Source of the DNA: a virus
Direction: 5' to 3' (one strand)
DNA length: 21,751 nt
IMG/VR virus record: IMGVR_UViG_3300011440_000200
Coordinates: 1 to 21,751 of that record
In this document: piece by piece, positions 823 through 21,751 of the stretch
Numbering within the stretch: the first letter of the stretch is position 1
How the letters are laid out: every line of letters begins with the position of its first letter
Translations under genes and position numbers: made by a program
Notes under the pieces: model-generated
What the model was told of the DNA's origin: nothing
The model's database searches: none
What the model saw: the letters and a program-made list of their open reading frames with translations, nothing else

Positions 823-1004
823 AGGTCCAATTGGATGCGCCAGGTAAGCAGTTCAACGAGGATGTGGTTCTCGCTCTGATTCCACGAGAGGGAGACACCA
901 TCGAATGGAAGAATGATAGCGACGATTCCCGCACGTTCCGAGTGCATCATGTCGTGTGGTTTGTTGGCGACGCCGAACCGATTGTCCGTCTGGTACTCCG
1001 ATGA
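819..1004 (+). CDS. Small beta-rich protein (61 aa)
   Basis: The GTG start at 819 overlaps the upstream TGA and follows a GGGGAGGAACT ribosome site with good spacing. The 61 residues alternate hydrophobic and polar positions, with a central IPREGDTIEW followed by FRVHHVVWFVG. That pattern fits a compact SH3-like or OB-like beta barrel, as seen in many small phage proteins where PR-x-GD-x-(I/V) marks a turn. The fold is inference. No catalytic residues are evident. The end overlaps the following zinc-ribbon gene by ATGA at 1001-1004. Confidence 0.65.
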   Translation: MKVQLDAPGKQFNEDVVLALIPREGDTIEWKNDSDDSRTFRVHHVVWFVGDAEPIVRLVLR

Positions 1005-1441
1005 CCGAGCAAGACGACACCCCGGACGCACTGGAGGAGTTGAAGGAAATGCTCGTAGAGTGGGACGGACAGCCCTACGCGCCACCTGGGCATGTCATGG
1101 TCGCACGCTCACGAATAGACCGCGCCATAGCCGCAATCGAATCGCTTCGCGGCGAAGTCCGTGAGTGGCTTTGCGTGAAGTGTCGGACCATCTACCCGGG
1201 GCCGCCGCAGAAGGGATTCGCCTGCGTCCAATGCCCCAAGTGCGGTGGCGACTGCGGCCCTCGAAACTTCATGGAACTGCGCCGGCTCCAGGCGGTTGCT
1301 GCCCTGTACGGAGAGTGGTTCGGATACGCCCATGACCGCATGTGGGTGTGCCGTGGTTGCGGGCTTGAAAAGGGAAAGCATCAAGACGGCTGCCCGGTGG
1401 GACTCTACGAGGAGGGGCTAGTCGTGGTGGAGGAGTCATGA
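1001..1441 (+). CDS. Double zinc-ribbon-like protein (146 aa), paralogue of 1960-2241
   Basis: The protein begins MTEQDDTP and has a helical N-terminal half. It then shows two Cys clusters: C58/C61 with C75, C78, C81 and C85 (CVKC...CVQCPKCGGDC), and C117/C120 with H127 and C131 (CRGCG...H...GC). These look like two treble-clef or zinc-ribbon sites. Between them lies LRRLQAVAALYG. The start, that motif and the C-terminal DGCPVGLYE recur in the gene at 1960-2241, so the two are diverged copies. Start and end both overlap neighbours by ATGA. The role is unknown; such ribbons often bind nucleic acid or protein partners. Confidence 0.75.
   Translation: MTEQDDTPDALEELKEMLVEWDGQPYAPPGHVMVARSRIDRAIAAIESLRGEVREWLCVKCRTIYPGPPQKGFACVQCPKCGGDCGPRNFMELRRLQAVAALYGEWFGYAHDRMWVCRGCGLEKGKHQDGCPVGLYEEGLVVVEES
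1002..1026 (+). repeat. Direct repeat, copy 1 (25 bp identical)
   Basis: Positions 1002-1026 are identical to 1961-1985 over 25 bases and encode the TEQDDTP start of two paralogous zinc-ribbon genes. Further identical blocks between the genes are CCGGCTCCAGGCGGT (1282-1296 and 2064-2078) and GACGGCTGCCCGGT (1385-1398 and 2197-2210). Together they mark a gene duplication within the operon. Confidence 0.85.
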
Positions 1442-2557: not shown

Positions 2558-2600
2558 GTAGAGGGCAGTTTGGAGGGCCAGGGAAGGCCCGACCCTCTAC
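2558..2600. terminator. Candidate bidirectional terminator (nested stem-loop)
   Basis: GTAGAGGG at 2558-2565 pairs perfectly with CCCTCTAC at 2593-2600, and inside it GGGCC (2575-2579) pairs with GGCCC (2586-2590) around a six-base loop. It lies exactly where the plus operon (ending 2550) meets the minus operon (ending 2597) and includes the minus-strand stop codon. There is only a mixed CTTCCTT tract after it on the plus strand and no T run on the minus strand, so intrinsic termination may be weak. Structure is seen; function is inferred. Confidence 0.5.
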
Positions 2601-2929
2601 CTTCCTTGCTCGATATCGGCCCAGGTGCGGGTATGCTGCTCGGCCCACGCCTTCTCCGCCATCCTCGCCTTCGCCCTCTGGATCACCGGATCCGCCTCCA
2701 GGTAGGCTCTCAGATTCTCCGGGGTGAAATCCTTCGTCCGGAATCCTCCACCCGGTGGCCCGAAGAGCTTCTGATCGAACTTCCCGTAAGCCTGGAGCGC
2801 ACGAAGCTGCCACTCGGGGATGTTCTGGTTCGCCTTCATGTAGGAGTTAGCCGCATCGTAGATGCCGGTACGGGCTGCGGAGGTCATGAGCCCCGACCTT
2901 GCCAGCATCGCGAGGAGAGCTGGGTTCAT
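2597..2929 (-). CDS. Small helical protein, last gene of the structural operon (110 aa)
   Basis: The ATG at 2929 overlaps the stop of the PA14 gene by ATGA. The 110 residues are mostly helical and Ala-rich at the N-terminus. They include a Gly/Pro linker (FGPPGGGF, residues 56-63) followed by an acidic/basic helix (ENLRAYLEADPVIQRAKARMAEKAWAEQ). There is no signal peptide or membrane span. Its position behind lysis and internal-virion-like genes suggests a minor virion or lysis-accessory protein, but no family is recognised. Its stop codon falls inside the convergent stem-loop. Confidence 0.65.
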   Translation of the reverse strand: MNPALLAMLARSGLMTSAARTGIYDAANSYMKANQNIPEWQLRALQAYGKFDQKLFGPPGGGFRTKDFTPENLRAYLEADPVIQRAKARMAEKAWAEQHTRTWADIEQGR

Positions 2930-3753
2930 TGGCTAAACGCCTCCGCAGGAATCACCTGCCGTGTCCCGCCCGGTGGGATCCAATCGAGCCGGAGCATCGC
3001 ATCCCCGTTATTGTGGAAGAAGTCGAGCCGGAAGGGATACCGCACTCCGGCTGCCAGGGAGATCGTCACGCTCCGTTCGTGCTCCTCCTGGACCGCCCAA
3101 TCCCGGATCACCGTCGACCCGTTCACCATCAAGGAATCCCCATCCTCCGCCCTTGCGATCAATACGTATTCCCCTGTGATGGCGGGGGAAAGATACCCGA
3201 TCATGGTTCCCGAGAAGGTGTCGGGCTGGATCGAGGGGTGCGGGCTTCCGTAGTCCCAATCGAAGGCGATATTGGGCACGTTGAAGAGAACGGTCGAAGG
3301 GCCGGTCATGTCCGCGGTGTCGAAGAGAACCGTGTGAAGCCCCGGCTCAAAGTCCTCGGGAGGGATGGCGATCATCACCTTGTTCCCTTCACAGCTCCAG
3401 CCCGCCGAACTCTTCGCCATCGCCCATCCCTGGTAGTAGCTCCCCGAGGTCAGTACGGTCTCGACCTTCATCGAATCCCCCCGAGAGCAGGGCATGAGGA
3501 AAAGAAGCGTGTCCCCGTGCGTGAACCGCCAGACCACGAGCGCACACTCCTCCACGTTCGCCAGAGAGTCCGCCCCGACCGCATATCCACACATCGAATC
3601 CGGGTTCTCCACCGCCTGATACATCGGAACAGTCCACTCCCACTCGATCGAGGCCGCGTGGGCCCGATGAGTTTGAACACATTCCCCCAGCATCCACCCC
3701 GCCACCCAGCAAAGGACGCCAAGGAGAAGAAGCCAAAGACAGGACCATCTCAA
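2926..3753 (-). CDS. Secreted PA14-domain protein (275 aa)
   Basis: The chosen start is TTG 3753, overlapping the upstream TGA as TTGA. It gives a classic export signal: Arg 2, then a hydrophobic core (residues 4-22) and a possible AHA cleavage site at 31-33. Residues 38-160 form a beta-rich domain with Cys 55, 70, 89 and 121 that could pair outside the cytoplasm. Residues about 165-275 read as a PA14 domain: DYGSPHPS, GTMIGYLSP, GEYVLIARAEDGDSLMVNG, a Trp-containing turn, LAAGVRYPFRLDFFHNNGDAMLRLDW and VIPAEAF. PA14 domains commonly bind carbohydrate or mediate adhesion. I infer a role at the cell envelope or in glycan recognition. The longer open frame upstream (to 3849) overlaps the preceding gene and is unlikely. 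Confidence 0.7.
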   Translation of the reverse strand: MRWSCLWLLLLGVLCWVAGWMLGECVQTHRAHAASIEWEWTVPMYQAVENPDSMCGYAVGADSLANVEECALVVWRFTHGDTLLFLMPCSRGDSMKVETVLTSGSYYQGWAMAKSSAGWSCEGNKVMIAIPPEDFEPGLHTVLFDTADMTGPSTVLFNVPNIAFDWDYGSPHPSIQPDTFSGTMIGYLSPAITGEYVLIARAEDGDSLMVNGSTVIRDWAVQEEHERSVTISLAAGVRYPFRLDFFHNNGDAMLRLDWIPPGGTRQVIPAEAFSQ

Positions 3754-4133
3754 CCGAGTTTGACCACCTCCGCCTTTGCTTCTTTCTGCATCGGAGTGAG
3801 TCCCGCCTTGAAGATCCCGGCCTTCTCCAGCCCAGGCCGGAGGAAGCACTCGTAGAAGGAAGACGCCACCACCGAGAGCGCAAGCGAGCCCATGGCCTTC
3901 GCCCCGAAGGAGAGGTGATGAACGAAGTCCCCGAAGACTCCAGCCTCGACCGGAGCGGGCCCGCCCGAGAACACACTGAGGAACGCAATCAGCGCGTTCA
4001 GAAACGGAATGAGGAGATTCGGGAGCTTCGCCAGGAAGGGGACGTACTTGTAGACGATCCCCGTTCCCACGAGGAGCGCCATGACCGGAGCAAGCGCGGC
4101 GAGCGCCTTTGCGATTTCATCCAGGACGTTCAA
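3750..4133 (-). CDS. Multi-span membrane protein, holin-like (127 aa)
   Basis: The gene starts with TTG at 4133, after a GGGAGGG ribosome site fused to the upstream TAG. Hydrophobic segments near residues 13-31, 38-56 and 79-97 give two or three transmembrane helices. The C-terminal tail is charged (MQKEAKAEVVK), as in many holins. It lies directly downstream of the M15 endolysin gene, the usual place for a holin that opens the inner membrane to let the lysin reach the cell wall. Family membership cannot be assigned, and another phage membrane role remains possible. Confidence 0.6.
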   Translation of the reverse strand: MNVLDEIAKALAALAPVMALLVGTGIVYKYVPFLAKLPNLLIPFLNALIAFLSVFSGGPAPVEAGVFGDFVHHLSFGAKAMGSLALSVVASSFYECFLRPGLEKAGIFKAGLTPMQKEAKAEVVKLG

Positions 4134-4142
4134 GAACCCTCC

Positions 4143-4553
4143 CTAGTAGTAGGTCCACTCCACCTCCTGGGGCAATGCGAGCGAAATGTCCACATGGAGG
4201 TAGTCCTTCCCCGTCCCGACCCGGTTGAAGAGAGCCCAGACGTAAATCCACCGCTTCATCAGATAGCGGGTCCGACTCGCCACACAGGCGATGTCCGCGG
4301 CCTCTCCAGTCAGGTGCGCGCTGTCCGGCTTCCCTCCGACCGCCTTGTTGTGGGCGGTACAGCGGACCCCGGAACGGATCACGATCGGTCCCCGGACGAA
4401 ACTTCTAAGCCGCTCCAACTTCTCGACCAACTCGGGCTCGACGTGATCCGCTCCACACCCACACTTACATGCGAACTCGCTTCGACTAAAGTGGGCTGAC
4501 AGGTCTCCCAAACTACGCGGGCGGTGCCGGGGGAACTCCTTCGAGGAGCGCAC
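4143..4553 (-). CDS. Endolysin, M15-type zinc D,D-peptidase (136 aa)
   Basis: The core reads as a peptidase M15 domain, a zinc enzyme that cuts D-Ala-containing peptidoglycan stem peptides. FSRSEFACKCGCG opens the domain; RSGVRCTAHNKAVGG precedes the zinc motif SAHLTGEAAD (His 80, Asp 87); and YLHVD supplies His 120. The length is normal for a single-domain phage lysin, with no separate wall-binding domain or signal peptide, so export would rely on a holin. The start is uncertain. GTG 4553 overlaps the previous gene by 41 bases with GGAGG almost touching it; TTG 4511, just after the upstream stop, would remove 14 residues without touching the domain. Confidence 0.85.
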   Translation of the reverse strand: MRSSKEFPRHRPRSLGDLSAHFSRSEFACKCGCGADHVEPELVEKLERLRSFVRGPIVIRSGVRCTAHNKAVGGKPDSAHLTGEAADIACVASRTRYLMKRWIYVWALFNRVGTGKDYLHVDISLALPQEVEWTYY

Positions 4554-14844: not shown

Positions 14845-15336
14845 CTACACTCTCCTCATCACATGCCAGCCGCAGACGAAGCGGGGTGCGCCGGTGGTGA
14901 AGGCGTAGGTCTTCTCCCGTACGAGTCCTGGGATGTCCTCCGGGACGGCGGGCTGCATCATCCCGAAGCAACCTCCCACCTTCAAGATTCTCCTGACCTC
15001 TTTCAGAATCTCGAACTCTGTCGGGAGCTTGTTCGGGATGCCGTAGAAGGCCTGGTTGAAAAGTTCGCTTACCGGAGGATCGCTCATGACCCACTCCACC
15101 GAGCCGTCCTCGAGCGGGGTGTGCCTGACATCGCAGCAGTGAGTGGGGTTCGTCTCGGGCCTAAGGTCCACGGTGATACCCCGTCTCACCGCGCCCCCGA
15201 AGAGATGCACCACTCGATCCGGGTCTGTGACTCCCAATCGCTCGAACGCCCAGGCCAGGAATCCGCCCGTGGGGTATCCGGTATCCTCGTCTCCGAGGAA
15301 CTCGACTTCCAGGATCTCGTCCAGGACTACTCTCAA
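14845..15336 (-). CDS. SAM methyltransferase-like protein (163 aa)
   Basis: The chosen start is TTG 15336, overlapping the upstream TGA as TTGA, because the frame further upstream runs over the previous gene. HLFGGAV (44-50) stands where the glycine-rich SAM loop (motif I) is expected, followed by an acidic VDLRPE strand. DPPVSE (86-91) fits the D-P-P-x catalytic motif of N-methyltransferases. EILKEVRRILKVGG is the helix and turn typical of class I methyltransferases. The length is short for a DNA methyltransferase and no target-recognition domain is visible. The substrate (DNA base, protein or small molecule) is open. It is unusual between structural genes. Confidence 0.65.
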   Translation of the reverse strand: MRVVLDEILEVEFLGDEDTGYPTGGFLAWAFERLGVTDPDRVVHLFGGAVRRGITVDLRPETNPTHCCDVRHTPLEDGSVEWVMSDPPVSELFNQAFYGIPNKLPTEFEILKEVRRILKVGGCFGMMQPAVPEDIPGLVREKTYAFTTGAPRFVCGWHVMRRV

Positions 15337-15590
15337 TCGGTGAAGATCGCTATGGTGAAGGCGTCCGCCGCCGTGAGCGCGCCGATCGTGAGAACTCCCG
15401 TTGACGCCACATATGCGAACGTCACCGCCGTCCGAGGCGTGGCGGACGTGAAGACCGGATAGCCTACCGAGACCAGGGCCTTCCCTGCCGGTAGCGTGAC
15501 GGTTTCCGTTGCGCCTGCTGCGGAAGCGCAAGTGACCAGGTACATTTTCCCATTCCCGAGGTGAGCAACTTTGCTAACGGTATTCGCCAC
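15333..15590 (-). CDS. Small beta-rich structural protein (85 aa)
   Basis: GTG 15590 follows AAGGAGA about nine bases upstream, part of which overlaps the end of the previous gene. The 85 residues are mostly short beta strands rich in Ala, Thr and Val (GKMYLVTCASAAGATETVTLP, TAVTFAYVASTGVLTIGALTAADAFTIAIF). Size, composition and place soon after the capsid gene fit a head-decoration or similar small virion protein, which is inference. Its stop overlaps the TTG start of the methyltransferase-like gene. Confidence 0.65.
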   Translation of the reverse strand: MANTVSKVAHLGNGKMYLVTCASAAGATETVTLPAGKALVSVGYPVFTSATPRTAVTFAYVASTGVLTIGALTAADAFTIAIFTD

Positions 15591-21001: not shown

Positions 21002-21030
21002 TGTGTACGACTGGCCCGGTATTATGTCAA
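21002..21030 (-). promoter_or_regulatory. Candidate sigma70-type promoter before the portal gene
   Basis: TTGACA (21030-21025, minus strand) is a perfect -35 box and lies 17 bases before TACACA (21007-21002), which matches the -10 consensus at only three of six positions. The -35 overlaps the stop codon of the glycosyltransferase gene. Transcription would start close to the portal ATG (20993), giving a near-leaderless mRNA, which would fit the absence of a ribosome site there. Confidence 0.35.
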
Positions 21031-21518
21031 CTAGGAATCGGGGGTCGGATCTGGGCAATGATGGGACTGGCCCATTTTTTGTCGATGTGGATGCGTTGTA
21101 GGTAGTGGTAGTCGGAGCCGTACCCGTCGCTCACCCATTGGGGGGAGGCGAGTCGGGGGACCAAGAGGCACTGGCCCTGCTGGTTTCCGGGCATGATCTT
21201 CCCCGGGACCTTCCACATCGGGTCCCCACAGAGGAGGATGCGGAAGATCCAGCAGACCTCGGGGTCTTCCGAGATGGCCTGGTGGAAGGCTTCAATGGCT
21301 CCGGGGAGGGCGATATCGTCGTCGTCCAGGAACCAGAGGTGGGTGCCCTGGGCTCGGGCGATCATCTCGTCCCGGCACCAGTTCCCATCATCCTTGTGTG
21401 GCTTGGAATCGACCTGGATGAGGAGTTCGTCCCCGGGGAGGAGCTGGCTCAGGATGGAGTCGATCGATCGCTGGAGGGTGGGCCGTCCCAGGGTGGGGAG
21501 GATGACCGAAACGCTCAC
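21027..21518 (-). CDS. Family 2-like glycosyltransferase (163 aa)
   Basis: GTG 21518 overlaps the upstream stop by GTGA. The N-terminus VSVILPTLGRPTLQRSIDSIL is the classic GT2 (GT-A fold) nucleotide-binding opening. WFLDDDDIALPGAIEAF (62-78) carries the D-x-D metal and sugar-nucleotide site. The protein is short for a GT2 enzyme and has no membrane helix, so it is likely soluble. Possible roles are transfer of sugar to phage DNA bases, virion proteins or host surface glycans; no acceptor clue is present. It lies directly before the portal gene, with only the 33-base candidate promoter gap between them. Confidence 0.75.
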   Translation of the reverse strand: MSVSVILPTLGRPTLQRSIDSILSQLLPGDELLIQVDSKPHKDDGNWCRDEMIARAQGTHLWFLDDDDIALPGAIEAFHQAISEDPEVCWIFRILLCGDPMWKVPGKIMPGNQQGQCLLVPRLASPQWVSDGYGSDYHYLQRIHIDKKWASPIIAQIRPPIPS

Positions 21519-21751
21519 CTGGCTGGGTCTAGTTGGTGGGGATCGTGTTTCCCCATGAACCAGGGGGTTTTGACTCCTGGGCGGAAGGAGTGGAAGAGGT
21601 AGACCCCGGTGGCGACCCCTAGCTTTAACCCTTGGGCTTTGACGGCTTGGGAGAAGGTGATGTCGTGGTTCAAGTGGCCTGAAAAGCCTCCAGCCTTCTT
21701 CCAGGTCTCCTTCTTGAAGAGGAGGAAGTGTCCGAAGAGGAGGTCTCCGGC
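21515..21751 (-). CDS. Partial glycosyltransferase-like protein (cut by right edge)
   Basis: Only the last 78 residues are visible; the gene continues beyond position 21751. The sequence (GDLLFGHFLLFKKETWKKAGGF then HLNHDITFSQAVKAQGLKLGVATGVYLFHSFRPG) resembles the C-terminal half of GT-A glycosyltransferases, where a [D/E]-x-x-[F/L]-x-x-x-[V/L] helix and a V-x-x-x-V-x-x-H strand complete the sugar-acceptor site. It overlaps the next gene by GTGA, so the two transferases are coupled. The N-terminal part needed to confirm the family lies outside the window. Confidence 0.6.
   Translation of the reverse strand, partial: AGDLLFGHFLLFKKETWKKAGGFSGHLNHDITFSQAVKAQGLKLGVATGVYLFHSFRPGVKTPWFMGKHDPHQLDPAR

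Follow-up and report, generated by a model that had tools for sequence, protein, structure and literature searches.

Most of the exported phage proteins known to change the surface of the host come from prophages of model bacteria. Bor and Lom of phage lambda, exported envelope proteins encoded by morons near the late genes, are likewise known from prophages. PA14 serves as a recognition domain in yeast flocculins and bacterial adhesins (PMC6650083, PMC3325183), and in MhPA14 the residues Asp136, Asp137 and Asp181 hold both the calcium and the sugar (PMC6650083). One of the variable genes of Cryophage encodes a secreted protein with a PA14 domain, and a role in superinfection exclusion or strain competition has been proposed for it (Bellas et al. 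2020, PMC7468147).

Here we analyze a PA14 gene of the virus record IMGVR_UViG_3300011440_000200, whose 21,751 bases constitute the stretch of DNA that we call the window. We suggest, with somewhat less than even confidence, that its product is an exported phage accessory factor of the moron type that binds surfaces or glycans and plausibly serves superinfection exclusion. The features on which the analysis is built are as follows.

2926..3753, minus strand: gene of the PA14 protein, with a TTG start at 3753 and its stop at 2926; 275 codons plus stop for 275 aa, frame open
3655..3753, minus strand: probable Sec signal peptide, residues 1-33, with cleavage expected between AHA and AS (hydrophobicity, predicted helix 4-23, N-terminal signals of relatives)
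3349..3654, minus strand: domain with four Cys (residues 34-135), which resembles FN3/Ig-like domains in its motifs alone
2929..3348, minus strand: PA14 domain, residues 136-275 (Pfam, PDB sequence matches, AlphaFold, Foldseek, VIA)
3139..3147, minus strand: E203-D204-G205, where PA14 lectins have their Asp-Asp calcium motif
3750..4133, minus strand: hydrophobic ORF of 127 aa directly upstream of the PA14 gene, candidate holin or other membrane protein
4143..4553, minus strand: endolysin (Peptidase_M15_3, 5e-17; phrog_894, 2e-28)
2597..2929, minus strand: ORF of 110 aa with no assigned function, which overlaps the PA14 stop and closes the minus-strand block

The PA14 gene and its surroundings

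The minus strand of the window is mostly a late block, which holds the portal, a capsid candidate, structural genes, the M15 endolysin, the hydrophobic ORF, the PA14 gene and the 110-aa ORF, while plus-strand ORFs at the far left make up the other block. The portal is P22-like, the capsid gene is a candidate that has no profile match, and neither the portal nor the 816-aa structural protein has a match in a cultured phage. The TTG of the PA14 gene overlaps the TGA of the hydrophobic ORF (TTGA), and its stop overlaps the ATG of the 110-aa ORF (ATGA); judged from sequence, such stop/start overlaps on both sides are the pattern of translational coupling. No promoter or terminator patterns were found in the region searched around the gene.

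The initial annotation had placed the gene at the end of a phage lysis region with endolysin and holin-like genes. The endolysin is indeed an M15 peptidase, whose SxH...D...HxD residues are preserved in four relatives, and the neighboring ORF is indeed hydrophobic, but family-model searches including Pfam, PHROG and NCBIfam returned neither a holin call nor any family match for it. Homology of this ORF to its counterpart in L030 found no support in the comparison. The 275-aa PA14 protein itself had zero PHROG matches and no match in the defence-protein library. A host search covering 396 genomes from the same phylum as an acidobacterial MAG (G067) found nothing, a negative result of little weight.

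Elsewhere in the window, a family 2 glycosyltransferase (PF00535, 8e-9) extends at the contig end across two overlapping frames (21027-21749, minus strand), which may reflect a frameshift or two genes. The second half of the ORF at 14845-15531 (minus strand) reads like a SAM methyltransferase (LKVGGCFGMMQP...), and a Cys-rich ORF at 956-1441 (plus strand) gave a weak 4Fe-4S/zinc-ribbon-like match that lies below the cut-off (Fer4_9, E 9e-4).

Three-part plan of the protein

According to profile and structure models, residues 136-275 are a genuine PA14 domain with the PA14 beta-sandwich fold. The PF07691 match covers residues 136-271 with an E value of 1.6e-22 and 80.3 bits against a curated cut-off of 24 (relatives score 52.9-54.1 bits), and the PDB sequences matched are the RsgI-type PA14 domains 6qdi (E 1e-25) and 6qe7 (4e-23). 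The AlphaFold model, built with a 16-sequence alignment (a single-sequence run reached a pLDDT of 39), has block-mean pLDDT values of 82-97 over residues 141-275. VIA superposed it on 6qe7 and 6qdi with Z scores of 23.2 and 23.1, Foldseek likewise placed it on these two structures, and MhPA14, MpPA14, flocculins, Epa1 and anthrax PA followed at a VIA Z of about 14-16. Thus the C-terminal PA14-like domain named in the initial annotation was confirmed both by Pfam and by the comparison of a predicted structure with PA14 structures.

The N-terminus, MRWSCLWLLLLGVLCWVAGWMLGECVQTHRAHA followed by AS, consists of an Arg, a hydrophobic core and an A-x-A motif. It is the most hydrophobic among the N-termini of 17 window genes examined, and residues 4-23 are helical in the AlphaFold model. 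The six further complete loci, which come from five distinct phages, each have a hydrophobic N-terminus too, the segments being widely divergent, and by sequence reading the A-x-A is present in the window protein and most relatives. These features are consistent with the hydrophobic export signal that had been proposed, and the PA14 protein would probably be exported through an N-terminal Sec-type signal.

Between signal and PA14 lies a middle domain of about 100 aa that contains, as had been noticed earlier, four cysteines (C55, C70, C89 and C121). Cysteine is enriched here, with 4 in 102 residues versus 0.9% elsewhere in this phage (P 0.013); every member compared preserves C55, and those that also bear PA14 preserve C121 as well. 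FN3-like motifs near the end of residues 34-135 give the domain a motif resemblance to FN3/Ig-like folds. For the same residues a PDB profile search and Pfam gave chance-level matches at most, and the L031 protein gave one weak FN3 match (E 0.02). The middle domain has low pLDDT in the AlphaFold model (under about 55), and the VIA structural matches, which span residues 130-275, leave it out.

The initial annotation further called the protein glycan-binding, a label carried over from the family name; the calcium/sugar site by which PA14 lectins are defined is altered in this protein. In the alignment to MhPA14, E203 falls at Asp136, D204 at Asp137 and H247 at Asp181, so that the pair D-cis-D plus loop Asp, by which calcium-dependent PA14 lectins are recognized, is absent from the window protein. 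The same holds for the family, with EDG in every phage member, where 9 of 10 bacterial PA14 domains in the comparison have DDG, and with His or Ala in place of the loop Asp across the phage members. Given this altered Asp site, the mechanism of a calcium lectin cannot be assumed; the ligand may be a protein, or a glycan bound independently of calcium.

A gene that moves and is exchanged

Related contigs were found through portal and capsid-candidate searches, and PA14 was present in 2 of the 15 related records searched. A single-sequence pattern search of IMG/VR found no close relatives of the window protein, and alignment-based searches found five and six loci. The plan of signal, four-Cys domain and PA14, correctly described at the outset, recurs in uncultured phages in five further sets of contigs (L029/L032, L033/L034, L035, L030/L036 and L037). 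In L031/L051 the signal and middle domain alone occur at the syntenic place. MT835643 was rejected as a phage homologue, since the match sits in Bacteroidota-like DNA within a GH3-PA14 enzyme.

The position of the gene bears directly on whether the protein could be an accessory lysis factor, that is, an exported spanin-like or auxiliary protein that helps to break up the outer envelope or attaches to debris of the cell wall late in infection. Such a role would agree with the window, where the gene follows the endolysin and the membrane ORF with overlapping stop and start codons, and with L029/L032, where it comes after the endolysin in the same gene order. However, it lies between the major capsid gene and small ORFs in L033/L034 and L035 (the capsid copy of L033 matches phrog_1328 at 6e-58), on the strand opposite the endolysin and about 1.3 kb away in L030/L036, and in an opposite-strand block in L037. 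Moreover, among 49 further records, 47 of which were picked by their M15 endolysin and two of which were known members, PA14 was found in the two known members and in 0 of the 47 others. Given these 47 records and the mixed positions among the members, M15 lysis cassettes do not include the PA14 gene as a standard component, and the gene also occurs outside them. The lysis link that had been proposed is therefore local to the window and L029 and is not conserved across relatives, and of the late-region homologues sought, one is syntenic while the others are found next to the gene of the major capsid protein or on the other strand. The window protein itself, by reading, has a single N-terminal hydrophobic segment, with no lipobox, second transmembrane segment or coiled coil, and in L029 a different ORF is more Rz-like (phrog_739, E 0.06). 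We thus regard a part in the lysis machinery as unlikely, and a gene next to an endolysin need not encode a lysis protein.

At the start of the L029 PA14 ORF (L029:3238-3357), the same DNA read in another frame encodes a small basic ORF, which is conserved in L031. These may be overlapping genes, and the overlap makes the exact start of the L029 PA14 ORF uncertain.

Adjacency to the major capsid gene in L033 and L035 raises the possibility of a virion component, in which a tail or capsid decoration would bind host or environmental glycans through PA14 and the hydrophobic N-terminus would serve another purpose. PA14 does occur in the tail protein of one phage, Tunturi_4, and many predicted proteins of phages contain it as well. 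Virion proteins, however, are normally devoid of Sec signals, whereas every member here has a predicted Sec-type signal, and neither in the window nor in L029, L030 or L037 does the gene belong to the structural block, which makes this role quite improbable.

The locus is also exchanged between near-identical phages. L037 and L036/L134 are 99.96% identical over 2729 bp and diverge 20 bp inside the PA14 gene of L036/L134; beyond the junction both carry PA14 genes of the same plan, the proteins of which are 41% identical. The L037 version retains a dead stub of the other allele, namely its first seven codons (MTRAWVL) and then a stop. A chimeric assembly is an unlikely source of the switch, because L135, from another, third sample, repeats the L037 junction with 100% identity over 4501 bp. 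In G009, a shorter protein, predicted to be exported, occupies the PA14 slot. The PA14 locus is thus a replaceable, flexible slot. Between L033 and L035, dN/dS is 0.12 for the PA14 gene and 0.07 for its PA14 part versus 0.23 for the capsid gene, and amino acid identity is 88% for the PA14 gene versus 74-75% for portal and capsid. The low dN/dS together with conservation higher than that of portal and capsid indicates that the PA14 gene is under purifying selection.

The lysis region of G003, a related phage (L136:2696-3094, minus strand), encodes a different short protein, MKTLLILAVLLALMCGMAQA...SVGLKVYLGR, which is predicted to be exported, has no Pfam match and is possibly a small outer-membrane barrel.

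A proposed accessory factor at the envelope, and its known counterparts

The occurrence of the relatives in swappable slots, and not only by lysis genes, makes an envelope-modifying accessory factor likelier than a part of the lysis machine. A likely signal in every member, a position unlinked to any one neighborhood, allele exchange and the other exported proteins of the slot all fit such a factor, and the earlier suggestion of action at the host envelope remains the best available reading. Its N-terminal signal would direct the PA14 protein into the Sec pathway of the host, by which it would leave the cytoplasm and reach the periplasm or the outside of the infected cell, where the PA14 domain may bind a surface glycan or another envelope component, the four-Cys domain possibly acting as a disulphide-stabilised spacer or as a second binding part. 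The likeliest benefit would be that the receptor of the infected cell is masked or altered, such that competing phages, or the phage's own kind, fail to adsorb; receptor masking, and hence superinfection exclusion, is the simplest benefit that can be proposed. The gene would be swapped among phages as an interchangeable module.

Several points count against this explanation. The place of the gene in the late lysis block of the window and L029 would be late for blocking superinfection, the incomplete set of canonical PA14 calcium ligands makes glycan binding uncertain, and the long segment ahead of the expected cleavage site in the window protein may mean an uncleaved membrane anchor. Lysogenic conversion by a prophage is without support, since a tyrosine integrase was found in 0 of 12 related records, mostly fragments. 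A more far-reaching proposal, which we consider doubtful, is that the exported PA14 proteins of these phages make up a distinct family that lacks the canonical calcium site, and that its cassette-exchanged alleles form a variable surface barrier of phage against phage, through receptor masking with interchangeable specificity. If true, the combination of a recognizable fold for binding with an export signal and alleles that can be swapped would make these uncultured phages a test case for competition through exchangeable surface factors.

The same predicted export and allelic variability, together with the recognition role of PA14 in flocculins and bacterial adhesins, might instead point to an adhesin that aggregates infected cells or changes the behavior of the host surface, as PA14 does in flocculins, RTX adhesins and TraA. 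Yet the protein is small, no surface anchor or sorting signal is visible and the calcium site is altered, so that we give this role little credence. The rather long stretch between hydrophobic core and cleavage site in the window protein, along with helix 4-23 of the model, makes an uncleaved inner-membrane anchor possible, from which a periplasm-facing protein would act on the entry of injected DNA or on peptidoglycan, but the classical A-x-A-ending signals of L035, L036 and L032 make this improbable.

For the envelope-acting accessory factor, the Cryophage PA14 gene, a type IX secretion (T9SS) cargo gene, is the closest published case. Both are phage-encoded, both carry PA14, and both lie at a locus that varies between near-identical phages; the Cryophage protein is secreted, and the window protein probably is. 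The Cryophage protein, however, has a C-terminal type IX sorting domain, whereas the window protein begins with a probable Sec-type signal, continues with a four-Cys domain and ends with PA14, with no NCBIfam match to a type IX sorting domain. Lambda Bor and Lom are likewise exported accessory proteins encoded near late genes, but their sequences are unrelated to that of the window protein and they are prophage-borne, whereas no integrase was found in the 12 related records described here. In Tunturi_4 (XOB77344.1), PA14 is also found in a phage, but within a long tail protein in a structural operon. The closest solved folds are the RsgI-type anti-sigma PA14 pairs (6qdi, 6qe7; Z 23, rmsd 1.1-1.4, 25-27% identity), which are outer domains of cellular transmembrane sensors, whereas the phage protein of the window is short and has one PA14. 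With the calcium-dependent PA14 lectins (MhPA14 6m8m, MpPA14, Flo5, Epa1) it shares the fold and, probably, an extracellular setting; in contrast to their Asp-Asp and loop Asp, the phage members carry Glu-Asp and a His or Ala.
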